In this document: piece by piece, positions 334 to 10,739 of the stretch | Layout: each line of letters opens with the position of its first letter | Numbering within the stretch: the first letter of the stretch is position 1 | Assembly (NCBI GenBank): GCA_025149125.1 | Contig: CP102272.1 | Location: 4,216,001 to 4,280,000 of the forward strand | Length of the DNA: 64,000 nt | Reading direction: 5' to 3' | Origin: [Clostridium] asparagiforme DSM 15981 | GTDB taxonomy: Bacteria; Bacillota; Clostridia; Lachnospirales; Lachnospiraceae | Position numbers and translations under genes: made by a program | The notes under the pieces: generated by a model | The model's database searches: none | The model's input: only the letters and a program-made list of their open reading frames with translations | What the model was told of the DNA's origin: nothing

Positions 334-510
334 TTTGGGTTCCTCCTTTTCCGGTCTAGTGTTTATTGTACCGGATTTTGGGAGGAAGTATCCTGATGAG
401 GGGAAATTTTTTGGTGAAATGTTGGGGGGTTTTGGGTAGAAGGTGGATGGAGGGGGAATAAAGGCGGAGGCTGTGAGTCATCGGTTAGTAAATTAGCCAA
501 CCGCCTGTGT

Positions 511-1078
511 ATTCCAATCTACACAGCCTTCGCAGACCTCGACGAAGATGTGTTCGATCTTGTAAAAGCTCAGTCAATTTCAATCCACGAGGCCTTCGCA
601 AGCTGTGACCCAACCGTTTCCGCATTGCGGAGCTGGCTGGAAGAATTTCAATCCACACAGCCTTCGCAGGCTGTGACCGGAAAAGCTTATTTCCTATAAA
701 ACCAAGTGCCTATTTCAATCCACACAGCCTTCGCAGGCTGTGACGTACAGGATTATCCATCACGCTTGGAGATTTATATTTCAATCCACACAGCCTTCGC
801 AGGCTGTGACTAATTTTATCTAGTTGAATGGGGGAAAGTATGAAATTTCAATCCACACAGCCTTCGCAGGCTGTGACAATAATCTCAAAATTATGTGATA
901 AATCCATTGATATTTCAATCCACACAGCCTTCGCAGGCTGTGACGGTGATAGGCATCGAAAAGGATATTGTAGACATATTTCAATCCACACAGCCTTCGC
1001 AGGCTGTGACGCTTTCCATGTTATCCTCCTCTCATATGATAGTATATTTCAATCCACACAGCCTTCGCAGGCTGTGAC
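511..1078 (-). CRISPR. CRISPR array, 9 repeats of 33 bp and 8 spacers of 33-35 bp
   Basis: Repeats lie at 511-543, 577-609, 645-677, 712-744, 778-810, 845-877, 912-944, 978-1010 and 1046-1078. The seven right-hand copies are identical. The copy at 577 differs at a few bases (GAGG for CAGC and one A), and the copy at 511 is clearly decayed. On the minus strand each repeat starts GTCACAGCCTGCGAAGGC and ends GTGTGGATTGAAAT. The palindrome CACAGCCT-GCGA-AGGCTGTG gives an 8-bp stem with a GNRA loop, and the 3' ATTGAAAT is the usual type I/III 5' handle of the crRNA. Decay at low coordinates marks the trailer, so transcription is leftward from a leader next to the last cas gene. Spacers are all different; no target could be searched. 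Confidence 0.98.
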
Positions 1079-1227: not shown

Positions 1228-3129
1228 TTATGTGCGCTTAGGGTTCGCACGGTGGTATGCTTTTGGGGTTGCCTTTTTCGTATGCAGACGTTTTCCAGAA
1301 CTACTATTTGTATCCAGTTCCTCCTCTGGCTTTGGAAGTATTTTTGAAAATGCTGGTTGCTGCTTTTTCGAGTCTTCATTTATTTTGTTATTGTTGAACC
1401 AAATAAACGACTCCTTTTCGTCTCCCTCCACCTGCGGATAACTGACATCGTGGCGGAGAGGTTCTGCACAGGCCATTATTTTCAATGTTTTTACCGGCTC
1501 GCATTCCGTCGCTATATCCATCCCCAAATCCTTATAGGTTTTTCTCACCAGTTTCACCGTTCCTGTATCTCCGTCAACCTCCCGAATTTCCAAATCGCAG
1601 ATTTTTATCCGCACACTGCCCAGACCATAAGGCTTTCCCCTTCCGACCTTATGGGCGCAGACTTCATCCATAAAATCCAACGACCACCGCAACTGTCCCA
1701 GTTCTTTCCGATTTAGCTTATCAAAATACACCCGAAAATGAAATGTTTGCTTCCTTCCTGTCTCCTTCCCCGGAAGAAGAGGACGTATCCGCTGCTTAAG
1801 CTGGTTGTCCAACAGTTCACTTTTATCCAGTTTTTTCCATCCATCATGGTGCCAATAGAACTTACGCCCCCTCAATTTAGGTAGTGATGGTGGCAGCAAT
1901 CTAAGGTATTCATTTTGATCCGTTTTGACACGTACATGGTCATATGTCCAGTATCCTTCTGTTTTCCAGTATTTCTTTTCATTATCCTCGTAGGGCGATT
2001 CCGTATAGAACTCGACTGTATCTGGATGCGGTGCTCCAACTTCGGGCAGTATCATGTAATCACCATAACAGTTTACAGCGTTTTCTTTCCCCATATCTTC
2101 ATCTAGCCGGGCATCCGTAAAACGCACTCTAGTACTGACTGAGCCTGTATTTCCATGCTCTCGTGAAACCATCCCAAATACCTTGCAAGACGGACATATC
2201 TGCATGGCAGAGACACAGGGCTGAAAACCTCCGTTCTCTTTCAGGATCGCTTCTAATGTTTTCTGATAACAGTTTCGTTCCAGAAAGGCCGGAGACAGGT
2301 ATCTGGGTTTATTCTTTTCCTCGGCATAATAGACTGGAATACAGCTATTGCTTTCTGAAAATCCAGGCTGCGCAACTTCACCTCGGCAGCTCTTGACGAT
2401 CTGCTCAAATACCTCATATTCTTCCGTCTGGATCAGCTCTTTCGCCTTCTCATCCGCGCAATAAAATACATACTTATATGGATATTTTCCACCAGACGAT
2501 TTCTTATTGTGAATCCACCCCCGATAATAATCAGAGGGTTTGTTTCTTCCATCCGGTATCTGATAATCCTTCACGCTCATATTAAAAAATGATTTGCCAT
2601 TCTGATCGTGGTACATTTTTTCCAGTTTGACCCAGATTTCCTGACCCTCTCTAAAACACTGCCTCGCATTAAACGTCGCGCGTTTACATGGTATGAAGCA
2701 GCATTTGTTTTCCGCTTCTCTCACCAAAACCCCCGGATATGTTTTCTCAGGAATCTCCTGTCCCACAACCGTATCCACCCGCATCGTAGACGCACATCCC
2801 CCAAACGCCGCCTCATACACGCTCCGCACCGCCCCCCTGATTTCGCTCCCGGGGATCACCGGGTCTTTGGGGCCGGTCTTTCCTGGCTGGGTGTTCCCGG
2901 AGAGGTCTTCGTAGGAACAGAACTCGTATCCGGTATATTGATGACTTTGCTCCTCCTCGTTGCATAGGGCATATTTGTTGGAGGTGTTGGGAATGAACAG
3001 CGGGGTCAGAAGCTCCAGCTCGCATTCAAAGTAGCCGGTCATGCACTCCTGAGGCCCCAGGTTCAGCGGCTCCCGCCGGCAGGTTCCCGTAAACGGCACA
3101 AAATTGTATGGATTTGTAAAATATTCCAC
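1228..3129 (-). CDS. Type III-D RAMP protein with insertion (Cas7-insertion type, TIGR03986-like)
   Basis: The product is 633 aa, far longer than a single Cas7 (about 230 aa). It opens with the NPYNFVPF signature of the TIGR03986 RAMP family. The core holds PGSEIRGAVRSVYEAAFG (the RAMP fold helix after the PGS turn), a Cys pair at CPSCKVFGMVSREHGNTGSVS, and a closing glycine-rich HKVGRGKPYGLGSVRIKI. The long middle insert and the charged tail are lineage-specific. In the III-Dv complex the matching subunit caps the Cas7 backbone around the crRNA. GTG at 3127-3129 overlaps the csx19 stop (TAGTG) and has AGGGGG 8 bases upstream; a GTG three codons earlier lacks room for a ribosome site. It is the last gene before the array leader. 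Confidence 0.85.
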   Translation of the reverse strand: MEYFTNPYNFVPFTGTCRREPLNLGPQECMTGYFECELELLTPLFIPNTSNKYALCNEEEQSHQYTGYEFCSYEDLSGNTQPGKTGPKDPVIPGSEIRGAVRSVYEAAFGGCASTMRVDTVVGQEIPEKTYPGVLVREAENKCCFIPCKRATFNARQCFREGQEIWVKLEKMYHDQNGKSFFNMSVKDYQIPDGRNKPSDYYRGWIHNKKSSGGKYPYKYVFYCADEKAKELIQTEEYEVFEQIVKSCRGEVAQPGFSESNSCIPVYYAEEKNKPRYLSPAFLERNCYQKTLEAILKENGGFQPCVSAMQICPSCKVFGMVSREHGNTGSVSTRVRFTDARLDEDMGKENAVNCYGDYMILPEVGAPHPDTVEFYTESPYEDNEKKYWKTEGYWTYDHVRVKTDQNEYLRLLPPSLPKLRGRKFYWHHDGWKKLDKSELLDNQLKQRIRPLLPGKETGRKQTFHFRVYFDKLNRKELGQLRWSLDFMDEVCAHKVGRGKPYGLGSVRIKICDLEIREVDGDTGTVKLVRKTYKDLGMDIATECEPVKTLKIMACAEPLRHDVSYPQVEGDEKESFIWFNNNKINEDSKKQQPAFSKILPKPEEELDTNSSSGKRLHTKKATPKAYHRANPKRT

Positions 3130-3707
3130 TATACACACCCCCTGTTATCCGGCCACGGGCAGAAGCCTAACAGCCGTTCGTCTATCTGCGACACCAGACC
3201 GCGTTTTTCCGTTGCATCCGGGAATTCATAGTATTTGCGGACCCGCAGGCCTATCGCTCCGCCGACTCTTCCCAGCACTTCCGGTACCCAGATCGAAGCG
3301 CCCCGGCTTGACTTAAGCACGCTCCACGCCTCGTCGGCCCTCTGCCCTTCTCCCCACATTTTCTGTTCCTCGTCCATCACATACGCCAGGCTGTTGCAGA
3401 TCCCGTCGCGGCGCAGCCTTCCGCAAAAATGCAGGCCGCGGCGAACCAACCTGAGCTCCTGTTCCTCGTCGAATATGATCATTTTCTGCACATTTTCCCA
3501 CAGAAAAGCATTCTGAATCCCCTGGCCGTCTGTGCGGACCTGCCAGGTTCCCCGGTCGTACCGGCCCAGAAGGACCTGATCGTCCATTTCCAGGTAAAGC
3601 CCGGCTTCCCCCGGAAATTCCTCCCTCACGATTTCCTCAATCTGCTCCTGTGTCAATTCCGCCTCATCGCGCACGCATGTGGACGTAATCTGGCGTATTT
3701 TGCCCAT
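3129..3707 (-). CDS. csx19: Type III-D CRISPR-associated protein Csx19
   Basis: The product is 192 aa. A typical Csx19 pattern is visible: an acidic N-terminal part, KMIIFDEEQELRLVRRGLHF, a run of arginines, then DEEQKMWGEGQ, the DEExxLWG-like block. Csx19 is a small protein found only with type III-D effectors; in III-Dv complexes it is a structural subunit, and no catalytic motif is seen here. The ATG at 3705-3707 has AAGGAGG 7 bases upstream. The gene start overlaps the end of the double Cas7 gene by 44 bp, and its stop shares one base with the next start, so translation is probably coupled. Confidence 0.82.
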   Translation of the reverse strand: MGKIRQITSTCVRDEAELTQEQIEEIVREEFPGEAGLYLEMDDQVLLGRYDRGTWQVRTDGQGIQNAFLWENVQKMIIFDEEQELRLVRRGLHFCGRLRRDGICNSLAYVMDEEQKMWGEGQRADEAWSVLKSSRGASIWVPEVLGRVGGAIGLRVRKYYEFPDATEKRGLVSQIDERLLGFCPWPDNRGCV

Positions 3708-5139
3708 CCTGTACCTCCTTCTGCCGTCTGCACCAGCGAGCCGCCGCCTGCAAATATGCTTCCTCTTTCTCCACAGGCTCTCCGTCCAGAAGCATGCTCT
3801 TTTCCGCTTCAAATATCCCTCTGCCGGCTCCGCTTTCTCCGCCTACAGTCAACAGACCGCTGCCAAGCCCCTGAGCCGCCCACAAAAGCATACCGGGCAG
3901 CGCCTTCTTTTCCAGTTCGTCCAATCCCTGCTCCTGCCAGCGGATGGTGAGCCGCACGTTCCCTCCGGCCCACAGCGTTTCACCGAACAGCGCTCCCCTG
4001 GCGGCCCCTCCGGTGAAACGGTCCACTGCGGTTCTGTACACCGGCAGACTGTGGCCCCCGGAAATCTTCGTTTCCTCGAACACGAGACGGGAGGCGCGCA
4101 GCGCATTGCGGGTCCTGCCTGTGCTCCAGGTTCCCCAGAATGGTTCCAGCGCCTTTTGCGCGTCTTCCCAGCTTCCAAAGCCTCCGATCTGCCTCGCCAA
4201 ATCCGCAATGTAGCTGCGGACCGCACCGGCCCAAGTGCTCCCCGGAATCACGGCGGCGCCGTCTTTGAGCGTAAGCTGCCCGCAATCCGCGCTCATGTCC
4301 CGGTCCGGTTCTGAACCGGATTCTTTGCCCCACCTGGGGTTTGCATAGCTGCGGACCAGAAGGGTGCCGCTGAGGGTGAGGGGAATCTGCATGCAGTGCT
4401 CTCCCTCCGGCCTTTCCGCCAAAAGCGCTTCTGCGCCCCACTCCTCACTGCCGTCAAAGGCGTCCGCCTGGTCCCAGCTCCAATCCAGCCACGCCTGGAA
4501 ATCATCGCGGTTCTCCATCCTGAATGTCCGGTAATGCACCCCGCGCACCTCCAGCTTTCCAAATCCTCTGTTTTTCCTGGCCCCCAAACGCAGACTTCCA
4601 CGTTTTAAACCGCTGATGCAGTATTTCACTCTGGCCAGATCCCGGTCGATGGCAGCGTCCAGAGTGTCCGTTACCTGATTTTCCCTTACAATAATTTCCA
4701 GCCGAATACGGCAGTCAGCCCCCGTTTCCACGGCCTGCATGTCAAACTTCATATTCTCATCGGAGGTTTTTCCCTCGTTCAGCCGGACGCCATCCCGCCG
4801 GGCCGGATCGCTGTTCTCCAAACATGTATCGTATATCAGAATCCGGCTCTGAAATTCAAGGGTTTTGCCGTCCTTGTCCAGATTCTCACCGGGGCGCTGC
4901 GTCCAGCCCAGGGTTCCGAACAGCGCTTCCGCCTCGCGCAGCCCTGCCGCCTGTTCCAGATAGGACCTGAGCACTCCGGCCATGGAGCTTCCCGGTATAA
5001 ATGGAATCCCGTCCGCAGTCAGCAGCTGGTCTATATCCGCCTTCTCGTCTTCGCCGGAAGCGACCAGCAGAGGCGCGTCCAGGTATCCATCGATGTCAAC
5101 CATAATCCGCGCGCGGATTCTATTTTCCTTGTTTTCCAT
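3664..5139 (-). CDS. Double Cas7 RAMP protein (Cas7-2x type) of the type III-Dv effector
   Basis: The product is 491 aa with two Cas7/Csm3-like units in tandem. Unit 1 (about 10-215) has DGIPFIPGSSMAGVLRSYL and the glycine-rich GLKRGSLRLGARKNRGFG. Unit 2 (about 245-460) repeats the layout with DGAAVIPGSTWAGAVRSYI and GGESGAGRGIFEAE. Aspartates precede each PGS turn (ADIDQ and DRDMSAD), where Csm3-type subunits carry the residue that cuts target RNA, so one or both units could be nucleolytic. This duplication is diagnostic for III-Dv. The ATG has GGGAGG 9 bases upstream. The start lies inside the 3' end of the cas7-5-11 fusion gene. Confidence 0.85.
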   Translation of the reverse strand: MENKENRIRARIMVDIDGYLDAPLLVASGEDEKADIDQLLTADGIPFIPGSSMAGVLRSYLEQAAGLREAEALFGTLGWTQRPGENLDKDGKTLEFQSRILIYDTCLENSDPARRDGVRLNEGKTSDENMKFDMQAVETGADCRIRLEIIVRENQVTDTLDAAIDRDLARVKYCISGLKRGSLRLGARKNRGFGKLEVRGVHYRTFRMENRDDFQAWLDWSWDQADAFDGSEEWGAEALLAERPEGEHCMQIPLTLSGTLLVRSYANPRWGKESGSEPDRDMSADCGQLTLKDGAAVIPGSTWAGAVRSYIADLARQIGGFGSWEDAQKALEPFWGTWSTGRTRNALRASRLVFEETKISGGHSLPVYRTAVDRFTGGAARGALFGETLWAGGNVRLTIRWQEQGLDELEKKALPGMLLWAAQGLGSGLLTVGGESGAGRGIFEAEKSMLLDGEPVEKEEAYLQAAARWCRRQKEVQDGQNTPDYVHMRAR

Positions 5140-7318
5140 TACCTGCCGCCTCCCTTCTCGCGCTCCATTTGCTGTTCAACAAATAGAAATAAATAAACTC
5201 GTGCGTCTTTCCCTCACAGGGCCGCAAAAATTCCTGCGCCCTGTTCTTTTTTTGCTCATCCCGTATATTATCGATCTGTTTTTTAAGCTCCGTGTAGGAA
5301 TAGTCCTCATGTTCCTCCATCAGCGCAATCAGCTGCTCGATTGTCACCGCACTGGGCAGCGCTGCCTGGGTGCTCATTGCCTCCCGGCGCTGCATTTCCC
5401 GCTCTTTCTCCCGCTCCTGGTATGCCTCCAGCTCCAAAACCAATATGCCAGGGGCCGCCGGATCGCCCTTCTCCACGGCGTTCGTACCGTCCGCCGCCGC
5501 CGTTTGGCAGTTCTTCATGGGCTTTGTGACATCGTCCCAGGACAATGCCTTTACCTGACCGTTGCCTCTACCGGTCATATCTCCCCAGAATTCGGATTCC
5601 AGCTGGGCGGTGCAGAGGTTTTTCTTCACCTCGATACAGATGACGGAACCGGGCGCCAGCGCCGTATATTGGGGCAGGGGGAGGTTCCATTTGCCGTTAT
5701 AGCCGCCGATTCTGGTGTATTTTAAAATTGCATCTTTGATCTCCACCGGACAGCCCAGACGGTTTTCCAGCTGCTTTTTCAAATGCTTTTCTTCTAACGT
5801 CCGTCCCTGACCGCTCTTATCGGAGCATACGTTGTATTCATCTTGTTCTGACGCCTCTTTCTGACCGCTCTCACCGACGAAAACCATGGGAGACAACAGC
5901 CACAGCGCCCACTGGCCGGACCTGACCTCCTGCTGTCCGCTCCCTGCCGGGAACAGGCGTATCCTGGCGTTCCCATACTCCGCAGTGCGGGAGCGGCCCA
6001 GCCTCAGATTCCAGTCCCGTTTCTCCAGGCAGGCGGCAAGCTCTCGCAAATCCCCGGCATTTCCCCGGATCACCCCGGAAAAACGCTGTCCCCCGGAAAT
6101 GCACATGTAGGAGAAGAATTGTCCCATATCCACCGCGCCGGCCTGGATGAGGTCGTTGACCGCGTGCCCGATGCCTCTGTCCTTTGGACGCTGGTGGTGC
6201 AGCCTGACCTCCTTTTCCACATCGGCCAGATAAACCTTACCGTCTCCCCAGTCAAATGCCGTCTGGCCGGAAAGTTCTTTTCTCCGCTTTTTCTCATCGT
6301 CCCCGTTCAGGCGGTTGATCAGCCGGCCCTCTCCCCGCTTTTCCAACGCCAGGAAGGCCGGAGCCGGGTAAAAGGTTCTGTCCCGGCCGCCCGCGGCGGC
6401 TTTCAGGAAACCATTTCCGAAGCGCACTCCATCCCGGAGGAAGATTCTGGAAAATGCCTCGTCCCGGTGGGCGTCTGCGCCAAGCCCATGGTCCGCTATG
6501 TACATGGCGGCCAGCGCGCCCATAATCGCGGAGCCAGGAATATAGTCGCAGCAATCCTCATACAGCCCTCTGCTGCCGGAAAACAGCACCGGATTCTGCA
6601 GCTCGATCTCGTATTCCATAGCATTTTCGCCCGGAAAATCCTTGGGAATCCCACTGTCCTTCGCAGCGTCCTGCTCATGCGCTACATACTCTGTGAGGGT
6701 GCAGGACACCTCCCCATAGCCTCTCGTGATGCCCAGGCCCACATGGCGCAGCGCCTTTACGCACCATTTCAGCAGCTGCGGCGGCGTCTGGCCCTGAGCG
6801 TCCGAAAGCTCCAAGAGGCTGCGGAATACGATCCCCCGAGGGACGACCTGCATGGTCCGCAGGGTGGTTTTCTGCGCATTTTTCAGCTCCTTGTCAATGG
6901 CGGTGCGAGTCCGCAGCCTGGTAAGGAGCCGCTCCGCCAAATCTTCACTGAGTTTTGGATGGCGGATCAGTTCCCTCAGCTCCTTTTCGTAGTTCTCCAG
7001 CACCACGTCGCCGTCCGCATGCTCCTTCCCCAACAGGAAACCGGGAATGCGGTAAATGTGCGCATCTCCGATATGGAGACGGGCGGGATGGGAGGCACCG
7101 GGGCGGCCGAACAGATCGGCCAGTTCGGTTGGCGCTGCAAAGCCGTTTGATACGATTTCCTTTCCTTCATTTAACAGACAGCCCTTCAGCCGCTTGGCGG
7201 GGATGATGGGCAGGCCGTGTTCCAGCGCTGTTTTCATATTTGTGACTGCCTGCTCGCTGTCCCCTGTCGCCGCGCACAGATCGCTTTTCAATGTAATTTC
7301 AAGCCACCAGCGTTTCAT
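5120..7318 (-). CDS. Cas7-Cas5-Cas11 fusion protein (Csx10-containing) of the type III-Dv effector
   Basis: The product is 732 aa. Residues 1-210 form a Cas7-like RAMP unit: GLPIIPAKRLKGCLLNEG near the start and VGLGITRGYGEVSCTL at its end. Residues about 235-575 resemble Csx10/Cas5: CDYIPGSAIMGALAAMY, the RFGNGF block, GQRFSGVIRG, LRLGRSRTAEYG and GGYNGKWNLPLPQ followed by PGSVI. The last 130 residues are charged and helical (QEREKEREMQRREAM onward) and fit a fused Cas11 small subunit. This three-part fusion is the hallmark of the III-Dv variant. The ATG overlaps the cas10 stop as ATGA, with AAGGAGG 7 bases upstream. The catalytic Asp of Csm3 is not evident in the first unit. Confidence 0.85.
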   Translation of the reverse strand: MKRWWLEITLKSDLCAATGDSEQAVTNMKTALEHGLPIIPAKRLKGCLLNEGKEIVSNGFAAPTELADLFGRPGASHPARLHIGDAHIYRIPGFLLGKEHADGDVVLENYEKELRELIRHPKLSEDLAERLLTRLRTRTAIDKELKNAQKTTLRTMQVVPRGIVFRSLLELSDAQGQTPPQLLKWCVKALRHVGLGITRGYGEVSCTLTEYVAHEQDAAKDSGIPKDFPGENAMEYEIELQNPVLFSGSRGLYEDCCDYIPGSAIMGALAAMYIADHGLGADAHRDEAFSRIFLRDGVRFGNGFLKAAAGGRDRTFYPAPAFLALEKRGEGRLINRLNGDDEKKRRKELSGQTAFDWGDGKVYLADVEKEVRLHHQRPKDRGIGHAVNDLIQAGAVDMGQFFSYMCISGGQRFSGVIRGNAGDLRELAACLEKRDWNLRLGRSRTAEYGNARIRLFPAGSGQQEVRSGQWALWLLSPMVFVGESGQKEASEQDEYNVCSDKSGQGRTLEEKHLKKQLENRLGCPVEIKDAILKYTRIGGYNGKWNLPLPQYTALAPGSVICIEVKKNLCTAQLESEFWGDMTGRGNGQVKALSWDDVTKPMKNCQTAAADGTNAVEKGDPAAPGILVLELEAYQEREKEREMQRREAMSTQAALPSAVTIEQLIALMEEHEDYSYTELKKQIDNIRDEQKKNRAQEFLRPCEGKTHEFIYFYLLNSKWSARREAAGNGKQGK

Positions 7319-8853
7319 AGAGCGTCCTCCTTATTAACTGCTTCCCAAAAGCCGCGCCAAATGTTCCCGTCGTAAAAGTCCAGCGTTTCCAGCGCGTCAA
7401 AGATGCCGCCGTCCTTCCGGCCGGAGGTCACTGCGCGCTCTCCTGTCAGCTGCGAGACAGTGTAACCCCGGGAGGCGTATTCTTTTTTCAGTAAATCCAC
7501 ATGATCCTGGCCCAGACGGTACGCCTGATACAGGCGGCGCAGCCTGGTCATAGGCCACTGCCCCTGTATCCCGCCGTCGGGCGCCATCCGCCCCAGGGTC
7601 TGGCGCAGACGGTCGATGGAATCCTCGGACCGCAGGTCCACTTTTTCCGCAACGCGAAATGGGCGGACTCTAAGTGTTTCCAGCTGCGCTTCGTCCTTGA
7701 GTCCCTTTACAAATGCGCCCTGAACCACCTGAAAATCCAGGTATGCCGTTTTGTCGTCTTTCTCCTGGTACCAGCGGTTTTTCGCTCTGGAACAGCACGC
7801 CTCCGCAGCCTCGTAGGCGACGCTGAAGGGGAAATGATTGTGGACAAATGCGATGCCGGCGCAGGCCGAGAGCGGCAGCTTCTGATCCGAGAGCTGAAGC
7901 AGCCTTCGCAGACAGGCAACCGCGGCCCCGATTCCGGCCTTGCAGCAGCAGAGAAACGTCATGTCGTCCCCGTCCATGATCAGCGGTCGCAGGGGAAACG
8001 GTTCCCTGTCAAATACGGACGCAAAGGCCGTCTCCATGGCTTCGCTGGCCTGGCGGTTCCGCTGTGCGATTCCGGCGGAAAGCTGCCGCATGGCCGGAAC
8101 TGCCGTCTCGTAGGTTGGGTTTTGATCCATGAGTTTTTGAACCAGCTCCCCCATGTTGTTGCCGTCGATGTGAATCACCGCGATATAGCTGTTTTCTCCT
8201 TTTTGTTCCGCCAAGTCCTCCATCTCCAGCGCGTACTGCCCGGGCTGGGTTTTTGCGCCGTTGGACAGGCTGGCCCTGCGCTTTTCATATCGCAATTCGG
8301 ATAGTTTTGTGCTTGCTTCCCCACGGATTTCCAGGTGGGTGACCGGGCTGCCGTCGAACCCGTCCTGTTCCACAACTGCATAGGAGGACAAGGGCTGGGG
8401 ACGGCGCAGACGGCGCTTTATTTGGGCCATTTCCTGGTTTAAGCGCTTCAAGTCGCCGGGGAAATCGTCCGGGGTTGCTTCCACATAGGCGGAAAGCACG
8501 GTCACGCCCTGGCATTGTTCCATCATTTTCATGGCGAACAGTCTGCTGACCTGATTGTAGGCAGTTTCTTCGCGGTAAACAACAAAGGCGTTTCCGCCGC
8601 CAATGTATAAAATTTCTGCCAGCAGCTCCTTGGTTTGGGGCAGGGAAAATTCCCAGTTTTCAGAGTTGTCCCAGTTGGTCCTCACGGTATCCGGGCTGGA
8701 TGCTGCCCACTCCGTCAGTACGCCAGGGAGGGTTTCCTTCAGGATTTGCCCGACGTTTTGGGAGGCACCCACATTTTCCCGCAGCTGCCTTGAGGCGAAA
8801 ATGTAGCTCTGAATTCCACTCACATCGTATTTTGCAAGAATATATTGACTCAC
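7315..8853 (-). CDS. cas10: Cas10-type large subunit without an HD domain
   Basis: The product is 512 aa, short for Cas10. It starts directly in the first palm domain (YDVSGIQSYIF at 9-19, YIGGGNAFVVY at 83-93). The second palm has IHIDGNNMGE at 228-236 and MDGDDMTF at 293-300. The cyclase signature is thus DGDD rather than GGDD; Asp230, Asp296 and Asp297 remain, so metal binding and cyclic oligoadenylate synthesis are possible but unproven. There is no N-terminal HD nuclease, so this subunit should not cut DNA. GTG at 8851-8853 is used, with GGAGG 8 bases upstream. It sits 3 bp after the DUF6602 gene and overlaps the next gene by 4 bp. No CARF-domain ring nuclease or RNase is seen in the window. 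Confidence 0.9.
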   Translation of the reverse strand: MSQYILAKYDVSGIQSYIFASRQLRENVGASQNVGQILKETLPGVLTEWAASSPDTVRTNWDNSENWEFSLPQTKELLAEILYIGGGNAFVVYREETAYNQVSRLFAMKMMEQCQGVTVLSAYVEATPDDFPGDLKRLNQEMAQIKRRLRRPQPLSSYAVVEQDGFDGSPVTHLEIRGEASTKLSELRYEKRRASLSNGAKTQPGQYALEMEDLAEQKGENSYIAVIHIDGNNMGELVQKLMDQNPTYETAVPAMRQLSAGIAQRNRQASEAMETAFASVFDREPFPLRPLIMDGDDMTFLCCCKAGIGAAVACLRRLLQLSDQKLPLSACAGIAFVHNHFPFSVAYEAAEACCSRAKNRWYQEKDDKTAYLDFQVVQGAFVKGLKDEAQLETLRVRPFRVAEKVDLRSEDSIDRLRQTLGRMAPDGGIQGQWPMTRLRRLYQAYRLGQDHVDLLKKEYASRGYTVSQLTGERAVTSGRKDGGIFDALETLDFYDGNIWRGFWEAVNKEDAL

Positions 8854-8856
8854 GGT

Positions 8857-9813
8857 TTAATCCTCCTGTATTTTTCCGCCCAGGTTTTTCGTAAACATTC
8901 TTGCATAGGCTCTGTGCGGGAACAGCATGGGGTTGTTGAGGAACATTAGAAGCTGGTTGAGCTGGAAGGTGAGGGACAGGATGGTGTTCTCCTCTTCTTG
9001 ATGGTTTGTGACGCGGAGTTGGGTGAGGTTGCGCCTCTTTAGGGACTCTATGGAGTTTAACGCATCCTTCTTCCTTCCCATCATATATTCCGCTTCTTCT
9101 TTCTCCCGGTCACTGTGCATAAAATGGTTCAGATTATCATTCCACTGGATAAAATTCTTCTCCTCACCAGGAATCTGTTTTACCAGCCTTGCCTTTTTCT
9201 TCCCATCTTTGCCAGTGCCGACGTCCTCCACGAACAAAAGTATGTCAAATTCGTTCAGCAATTTCGTCCGCATTGATCTGCCCATTTCCGTCGCGCACAG
9301 TATCGTGATTGGGCGTGTTGAAGTCTGGGTGAGAATTTTGCTGTGCAGGCTTCGGTCATAATTATCTACCAAATCCATAATAGTCCTTGTAACAGAGTCC
9401 ATTGAAGTCTTTAGCGCTTTAACTGTATTGACCCACTCTATCGCATTTTCCGTAGTTGCCGTATCATTAACCCCGCTCTTACACTGCACCACCACCGCTA
9501 CCGCCTCAATGGGAATAAACTTGATTTCCCCATAATTAAAGATATAAGGCGTATACATTTCATCATACACCGCCAGGTCCACCTCTCTGGAGATATTCCC
9601 ATAGGAGTCAATGATGAAAACACTCTGCTCAATACAATACTTTTTCGGGATGATCATCTCGAAAAGGCTTTTCCAGACCCGCTCCCTGTATGTACCAACC
9701 GTCAACTGGTGGTTCGGCACCTGCAGCCGGAGCTGATTCACCAGGGACTGCTCCAGCTGGTTATAATTCTCTGCAAGTTTTTCAATCGCCTGATTCATCG
9801 TTTGTTCCGTCAT
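8857..9813 (-). CDS. DUF6602-family protein, putative PD-(D/E)XK nuclease embedded in the cas operon
   Basis: The product is 318 aa. Residues 17-115 fit the DUF6602 pattern: NYNQLEQSLVNQLR, then TYRERVWKSLFEMIIP, ISREVDLAVYDE and IEAVAVVVQCKSG. Glu77/Asp79, Asp84, Glu103 and Q110-x-K112 match the D...E...QxK layout of Mrr-like PD-(D/E)XK enzymes, so nuclease activity is inferred. Residues 155-225 (RPITILCATEMG, DILLFVEDVG) and the helical C-terminal third are unassigned; no CARF or SAVED fold is recognised. The ATG overlaps the cas6 stop as ATGA, with GGAGG 9 bases upstream, and the gene ends 3 bp before cas10. It is therefore co-expressed with the effector. It is not a known core subunit of III-Dv. 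It may supply DNA or RNA cutting that the HD-less Cas10 lacks. Confidence 0.65.
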   Translation of the reverse strand: MTEQTMNQAIEKLAENYNQLEQSLVNQLRLQVPNHQLTVGTYRERVWKSLFEMIIPKKYCIEQSVFIIDSYGNISREVDLAVYDEMYTPYIFNYGEIKFIPIEAVAVVVQCKSGVNDTATTENAIEWVNTVKALKTSMDSVTRTIMDLVDNYDRSLHSKILTQTSTRPITILCATEMGRSMRTKLLNEFDILLFVEDVGTGKDGKKKARLVKQIPGEEKNFIQWNDNLNHFMHSDREKEEAEYMMGRKKDALNSIESLKRRNLTQLRVTNHQEEENTILSLTFQLNQLLMFLNNPMLFPHRAYARMFTKNLGGKIQED

Positions 9814-10739
9814 ACCGTAAACCCTCCGTCATAATACAGTTCATACCTGCCAAACCCAATCGTAGTATTTTTCCCCACATGCAGATAACGCCCCGCCTCC
9901 AGATAAGGCACAAATGCCCCCAGATCGCCCTCGTACAGCGCCCAGCCGGTCCGGGCGGGCAGTTCCAGCTTTCCGCTGGGACTGTTGATGGAATACCGGG
10001 AAAAATCCAGATAATTCCAATGCTCGGCCACGGTCTTAACCTGTGCGGCCTGCCTGAGCATCTCCTCCTGATCCCACTCCATCAAGTAGTCCGTATACGC
10101 CTGGGTCATTTGCGCAAAGCGTCCCATCAGGAAACGCACCAGCTCCTGGAAAGGCAGGCTGGTAAACAGCGTTTTCCCCGCAACGATCCGCACCGGCGTC
10201 CGGAAGGAGACCATGACGCTTCTGGCGTTTATAGGCCGGATCTCCATGGCGTGGGACGTGAGATTGCGCAGATACGGCCTGCCTGCTCCGAAAATCAGCC
10301 TGCCTGTCTCCCAGTCCACCACCCGGTTCAGCGCGAAGGGGATCTTGGCTACTCCCCATCCCCGCCTCTCCATTGCCAGCAGAGCGTCAATGTAGATTCC
10401 CGGGCTCTCCGCCGCAGCTCCGAACAGCGTCAGGTGGAACCTGCACTCGTCCCCCGGCTTCCACTCCGTCTTTCCCTGGGTGCAGGGCAAAAGCACATAA
10501 GGATTGATTGCGCCTCCCTGTCCGCCGGTGTTGGCAAAATTGCGCACATAGAGACAACCGGACTGCTTTTCACAGGCAAAACACTTGGTGGCCCGCATAT
10601 CGCAGACAAAATCCCGGAAGCAGTGCCCCAATATTCCGCGTATGGTAGATCCAAGATACTCCGGCAGCCGCCCGGCCCCCCTTGCGGTAAATACTGCCTC
10701 CAGGGTTGTTACCTTCAAATATTCAAACAAAAATCCCAC
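9810..10739 (-). CDS. cas6: Cas6-family CRISPR RNA endoribonuclease
   Basis: The product is up to 309 aa with the Cas6 RAMP plan: an N-terminal segment with LPEYLGSTIRGILGH, then a cysteine set CDMRATKCFACEKQSGC (likely zinc site, common in clostridial Cas6), and the C-terminal glycine-rich loop KNTTIGFGRYEL. Cas6 cuts pre-crRNA at the base of the repeat hairpin to leave the ATTGAAAT handle. This is the first gene of the cas operon; its stop overlaps the next start (ATGA). The start is uncertain: GTG at 10737-10739 has no clear ribosome site, while TTG at 10728-10730 has AAGGTGG 5 bases upstream. No strong promoter was identified in the 120 bp upstream. Confidence 0.82.
   Translation of the reverse strand: MGFLFEYLKVTTLEAVFTARGAGRLPEYLGSTIRGILGHCFRDFVCDMRATKCFACEKQSGCLYVRNFANTGGQGGAINPYVLLPCTQGKTEWKPGDECRFHLTLFGAAAESPGIYIDALLAMERRGWGVAKIPFALNRVVDWETGRLIFGAGRPYLRNLTSHAMEIRPINARSVMVSFRTPVRIVAGKTLFTSLPFQELVRFLMGRFAQMTQAYTDYLMEWDQEEMLRQAAQVKTVAEHWNYLDFSRYSINSPSGKLELPARTGWALYEGDLGAFVPYLEAGRYLHVGKNTTIGFGRYELYYDGGFTV

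Follow-up and report, generated by a model that had tools for sequence, protein, structure and literature searches.

Which protein cuts nucleic acid in a type III CRISPR system whose Cas10 carries no recognisable HD nuclease domain? The question is raised by a 64,000-nucleotide stretch of the [Clostridium] asparagiforme DSM 15981 genome (contig CP102272.1), hereafter the window, in which a gene for a DUF6602 protein is embedded in a type III-D operon. The original prediction suggested a Mrr-like nuclease site in this protein, which may be the missing DNA- or RNA-cutting effector or an accessory triggered by Cas10 nucleotides, and rated it the best candidate for an undescribed system. Our analysis shows that the DUF6602 protein is a homologue of NucC, so that the search for a nuclease to go with the HD-less Cas10 ends at an already known kind of protein. 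NucC is a self-destruct DNA-cutting enzyme that is switched on by a small signal molecule from CRISPR systems. The gene product is very probably the NucC effector that serves this type III-D system: its homology, its coupling to the operon and its link to Cas10 are observed, and its activity would follow from analogy with characterised NucC proteins. The arrangement of nucC with a CRISPR operon is largely known; the real departure is a natural active-site variant.

The type III-D operon and its CRISPR array

The nucC-like gene (8857..9813, minus strand) is an open reading frame of 318 amino acids with an ATG start, and residues 32-134 of its product match Pfam DUF6602 with 80.9 bits (cut-off 27; E-value 7.1e-23). 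A literature search for DUF6602 gave no match. The predicted frame and its placement are confirmed by the sequence: the gene overlaps with cas6 by ATGA, and the GTG of cas10 begins 3 bp past its stop codon, with a ribosome-site-like AGGAGG inside the 3' end of the nucC-like gene just ahead of this GTG. Residues E77, D79, D84, E103 and Q110-C-K112, on which the prediction of a PD-(D/E)XK site was based, are found at the predicted positions; D79, Q110 and K112 form the active site discussed below.

The operon lies on the minus strand and consists of cas6, the nucC-like gene, cas10, a gene for a Csx10-type subunit with an N-terminal RAMP part, a double Cas7, csx19 and a large Cas7-like gene, followed by a CRISPR array in the same direction. 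PADLOC and NCBIfam profiles (Cas10d, Cas5_IIId/Csx10, two Cas7_IIId, Csx19 and Cas6) place it in type III-D. The cas6 product (9810..10739) matches PADLOC Cas6 at 2.2e-74 and Pfam CRISPR_Cas6 at 2.2e-13. The III-D type Cas10 (7315..8853, 512 amino acids) matches PADLOC Cas10d at 1.4e-150 and Pfam palm2 at 6.9e-08, and has a DGDD cyclase motif at residues 294-297; as originally predicted, no HD family is found among its Pfam matches. The Cas5_IIId/Csx10-type subunit (5120..7318, 732 amino acids; PADLOC Cas5_IIId 3.5e-281) has Pfam RAMPs at residues 8-204, and the 491-residue Cas7_IIId (3664..5139; PADLOC 1.9e-182) matches Pfam RAMPs in two stretches. The csx19 frame spans 3129..3812 when counted from the first TTG; its NCBIfam match (TIGR03984, 2.1e-31) starts at residue 59, so translation probably begins downstream of this codon. 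The last gene encodes a Cas7-like RAMP protein of 636 amino acids (1228..3138; PADLOC Cas7_IIId 1.2e-191, TIGR03986 5.1e-64).

The CRISPR array (505..1078, minus strand) contains seven intact and two degenerate repeats; on the minus strand the repeat ends with ATTGAAAT. In 100 shuffles, zero intact repeats were expected, and with up to three mismatches the repeat has seven matches genome-wide, all of them inside this array. Pieces of 22-24 bases from four of the eight spacers had no matches in viral_contigs. The sole Cas1 match in the genome is about 0.8 Mb distant from the operon. No second effector came to light in 16.5 kb on the other side of the array, where nine of the 20 listed open reading frames were searched, or upstream of cas6 up to 24 kb of the window, where one protein was searched (DUF1292) and the others were read by eye. 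Immediately past the array, on the side away from the operon, is a phage-integrase-family gene (L125:15377-16234).

Identification of the DUF6602 protein as a NucC homologue

The PADLOC NucC profile matches the protein at 1.6e-78, with residues 5-309 aligned to profile positions 6-241 of 243. A phmmer search against solved structures returned the NucC proteins of Vibrio metoecus (2e-14) and Serratia (1.4e-13), ORF C62 (1.5e-12) and E. coli NucC (3.3e-12), and the first match after the NucC entries reached only 0.034. An alignment of the window protein with 53 of the 86 sequences from the 80 related loci described below was used for profile and profile-profile searches: the resulting 54-sequence profile finds NucC among the solved structures with a best match of 1e-19, and the profile-profile comparison reaches a probability of 99.1 over 167 columns. 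The CBASS NucC of a Klebsiella plasmid itself matches Pfam DUF6602 at 5.2e-30, thus the name DUF6602 covers the NucC catalytic domain. No NCBIfam model matches the nucC-like protein.

These matches bear out the original assignment to PD-(D/E)XK-type nucleases and reject that of an undescribed effector. Nor is the system as a whole undescribed, since NucC with type III systems, with HD-less Cas10 and with type III-D is already in print (PMC8682760, PMC11229360, PMC9704534). The Mrr-like nuclease is rejected as well, with no Mrr family among the Pfam, PADLOC and NCBIfam matches listed at E-values up to 1. The suggestion of RNA cutting finds no support, and characterised NucC cuts dsDNA.

In the sequence searches, similarity to the solved NucC structures is limited to approximately the first 135 residues, the rest being aligned with gaps and inserts. 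The window protein exceeds CBASS NucC by 77 residues. Inserts within the region of residues 138-273 account for much of this difference, and long-form copies of this kind have a median length of 314 amino acids in our survey. Residues R53, Y81 and T226 of E. coli NucC, which we take to be those that contact cyclic tri-adenylate (cA3), align with K58, Y87 and N294, so that only the tyrosine is identical. Among intact copies from the best 80 of 132 relatives and three added sequences, K58 and N294 are present in 84 of 84 and Y87 in 99%. Judged by its sequence, the gene is a NucC homologue, and a glutamine variant of the NucC family rather than a canonical NucC.

Glutamine in place of the catalytic glutamate

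D79, Q110 and K112 align with D73, E104 and K106 of the Klebsiella CBASS NucC with the same 30-residue spacing. Relative to the NucC motif IDx30EAK, the window form is VD79-x30-QCK: the aspartate and lysine are present at the right spacing and the catalytic glutamate is absent. By the constant offset in the phmmer alignment, D79 and Q110 correspond to D83 and E114 of Serratia NucC. According to PMC13060164, mutation of either of these residues abolishes interference by the Serratia system, and the E114A protein is inactive. A glutamine is naturally common where a glutamate is required in a studied NucC, a contrast that is directly testable.

The frequency of the variant was assessed in a set of relatives. 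A genome_contigs search with the single window sequence gave no relatives, and the same search with an alignment of 12 sequences gave 132, of which the best 80 were kept. The 86 sequences from these 80 loci, together with the window protein, a Paenibacillus copy and one Cmr-associated copy (L026), make up 89 long-form sequences. Residue 110 is glutamine in 57 of them and glutamate in 27, the site being lost in five; D-(E/Q)-K is kept in the other 84, with no third residue at position 110. Given this share of glutamine, glutamate is not a mark of the type III branch. Among the best 80 of 132 relatives, the III-D-profile group has glutamine in 25 of its 26 intact copies. Here and below, loci are labelled III-D, III-A or III-B after whichever of three home-made profiles, built from sequences of this analysis, scores best, and the typing is unsafe for L050, L059, L062, L064, L066 and L092, which score only 28-45 bits.

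We read the exchange as an allowed active-site variant, which would not amount to loss of function. It could instead mark a protein that is NucC by descent with a changed chemistry, namely slower cutting, nicking or another substrate, and tuned for dormancy rather than death; the prevalence of glutamine, above all in the III-D-profile group, and the inactivity of the Serratia mutant both speak for such a change, which we nevertheless consider rather unlikely. At least nine switches between glutamate and glutamine occur on a quick tree of 91 rows with the active-site columns removed, while D79 and K112 stay; this number is approximate because 29 of the 88 inner branches are poorly supported. 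The restriction of position 110 to two residues also counts against altered chemistry. Moreover, Mrr and TnsA are examples of PD-(D/E)XK nucleases with functional QxK sites.

Association with Cas10 in related genomes

The original prediction asked for a recurrent association with type III loci, and a Cas10 gene was found in 77 of the 80 related loci (the best 80 of 132, with up to 9 kb fetched on each side; a raw count among nucC loci). The three loci without it are L099, where the gene adjoins csm5, L103, where it adjoins cas6 at a contig end, and L046. In L046 the long-form NucC (8920-9978) has no cas gene nearby, as judged with home-made profiles and with PADLOC on four neighbours; the gene at 5584-6381 has a match to mad3 of PADLOC (5.4e-22).

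Within this set of 80, nucC lies immediately before cas10 in 23 of 25 III-D-profile loci and in 22 of 26 III-A-profile loci. In three of the 23 (L058, L073, L098), the gene ahead of cas10 is an empty NucC copy and cas10 itself is a fusion with nucC. The III-B-profile group is arranged otherwise: nucC adjoins cas10 in none of its 26 loci, cmr1 lying between them in nine and nucC following cmr3 and cmr4 in 17. The tight order in the first two groups, the three fusions and one published fusion (PMC11229360) could indicate that NucC is docked on the Cas10 complex and cuts locally in time or place, rather than acting as a free diffusible effector. We regard this as improbable to about the same degree as altered chemistry, given the uniformly separated genes of the III-B-profile loci and the activity of Vibrio NucC when purified on its own (PMC8682760). 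Far less credible is a DUF6602 protein outside cyclic oligoadenylate signalling, a restriction-like or Mrr-like nuclease merely sitting in the operon: distant DUF6602-like proteins do exist at L033, L028 and L029, in surroundings with no annotated or recognised cas gene, but both the NucC homology and the Cas10 count oppose it strongly.

The reading as a NucC effector of type III systems agrees with closer relatives. A sample of 397 genomes of the same family contained 14 with a match and, counting the window, 12 long-form copies. Five of the 12 belong to III-D operons with the same gene order (the window and L016-L019), five occur with a Csm-like set (L020-L024; PADLOC on L020 and L022), and one with Cmr (L026). 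Cas10 is beside or near 11 of the 12; the exception (L025:3804-6556) has adjacent cas6, nucC and csm4 on a 7.7-kb contig where cas10 and csm3 were not found. The remaining three family matches are distant; among them, L027 has cas genes in its vicinity and is a canonical NucC of the short form.

Of 72,556 plasmid records 94 match; a single match covers 80% or more of the query and adjoins cmr genes. The Paenibacillus plasmid copy (L030) sits directly before an annotated cmr operon. Only two of 50,697 phage records match, both of Klebsiella phages and covering 25% of the query, and a single-sequence search of viral_contigs found no relative of the protein; a viral or phage origin was rejected on these grounds.

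The link of the nucC-like gene to a cyclic oligonucleotide synthase is seen both in the adjacent cas10 with its DGDD motif and in the survey. The cyclase motif xG(D/E)D is present in 76 of the 77 Cas10 proteins from the best 80 of 132 loci, the exception (L113) being in two pieces. A scan of the first 250 residues of the same proteins found an HD dipeptide in ten, at scattered positions. An intact cyclase together with the rarity of the HD dipeptide fits a division of labour that leaves DNA cutting to the effector instead of Cas10. Eight NucC-associated Cas10 proteins of the III-B-profile group (L104, L112, L110, L069, L089, L086, L108 and L068) have the motif as GGED, the letters usual in diguanylate cyclases; the other intact III-B-profile proteins have GGDD. 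In the published type III collection, HD was reported in 3% of III-D Cas10 and NucC in 35 of 1113 loci (PMC11229360).

Proposed mechanism and likeness to described systems

In Vibrio, NucC responds to the cA3 made by a III-B Cas10 that has no HD domain (PMC8682760), and a hexamer model of NucC appears in a review (PMC9704534). By analogy, the Cas10-Csx10-Cas7 complex with its crRNA would bind a matching phage transcript, and Cas10, with its cyclase motif intact and no recognisable HD nuclease, would make cA3. NucC trimers with bound cA3 would pair into hexamers, which would cut dsDNA with no sequence preference, and the infected cell would be killed or stalled, that is, undergo abortive infection. 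For the window protein, the ligand, the hexamer, the DNA cutting and the abortive infection are all inferred from characterised NucC; as originally suggested, the protein is an accessory probably triggered by Cas10 nucleotides.

The V. metoecus III-B NucC (PDB 6uxf) has a homologous nuclease domain and an HD-less, cyclase-bearing Cas10 as its partner (PMC8682760); unlike the window protein, it has 245 rather than 318 amino acids, a glutamate active site and a III-B operon. The Serratia III-A NucC (PDB 7zgv) is likewise a type III effector with a homologous domain, whereas its active site is ExK and its Cas10 still has a degenerate HD domain (PMC13060164). The CBASS proteins of E. coli (6p7o) and the Klebsiella plasmid (L031) have the equally spaced aspartate and lysine, and L031 the same Pfam domain; they differ in depending on a CBASS cyclase instead of Cas10, in their length of 241 amino acids, in the glutamate and in the C-terminal motif, SGTVP where the window protein has NNPMLFPH. 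The Virgibacillus pantothenticus locus is also of type III-D with NucC beside Cas10, but a NucC-Cas10 fusion and a standalone copy are described there (PMC11229360), in contrast to the single unfused copy of the window.

Paired NucC copies in Bacilli

A few related systems point to a pseudo-nuclease partner of NucC. In five III-D loci of Bacilli, a catalytically empty NucC copy (L058:8072-9004, L071:2245-3156, L073:2257-3264, L078:8067-9023, L098:8198-9004) comes immediately upstream of a Q-type copy whose site is intact. Three of these loci (L058, L073, L098) have the intact copy fused to Cas10. D79 and residue 110 are missing from all five empty copies and K112 from four. A careful tree was built from 36 of the 91 rows, those of III-D and six more. 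It unites the empty copies in one clade (support 100/100) and the intact partners in a second (100/99), whereas a single group of all ten paired copies has a support of only 68/61. Intact NucC has 57 conserved positions, of which 46 are retained by every empty copy and three by some, and eight are lost in every copy (E77, D79, residue 110, S113, F66, H35, G40 and R43), the losses of H35, G40 and R43 falling in a gapped region. By this pattern of conservation, the empty copy looks like a retained non-catalytic subunit.

No NucC with a pseudonuclease was found in a literature search, and the main text of PMC11229360, the source of the Virgibacillus pair, contains none of the terms "inactive", "catalytically dead" or "pseudo". 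We speculate that Bacillota type III systems possess a separate branch of NucC, which has an active site tolerant of either Glu or Gln and works beside or on Cas10. One Bacilli lineage could then have turned it into a two-part enzyme, with an active NucC, in some cases fused to Cas10, and a conserved empty NucC in a mixed hexamer that would nick DNA or tune its cutting. This model is tentative and, in our judgement, only a little more plausible than altered chemistry or docking. A survey with the dead copy matched at 1e-20 in two of 397 genomes of the order of L078. As these two include the genome that supplied the query, the paired form seems to be rare in this order. Another tandem arrangement is seen in L041 (2640-4824), where two NucC copies, both D-Q-K, precede a III-D cas10.
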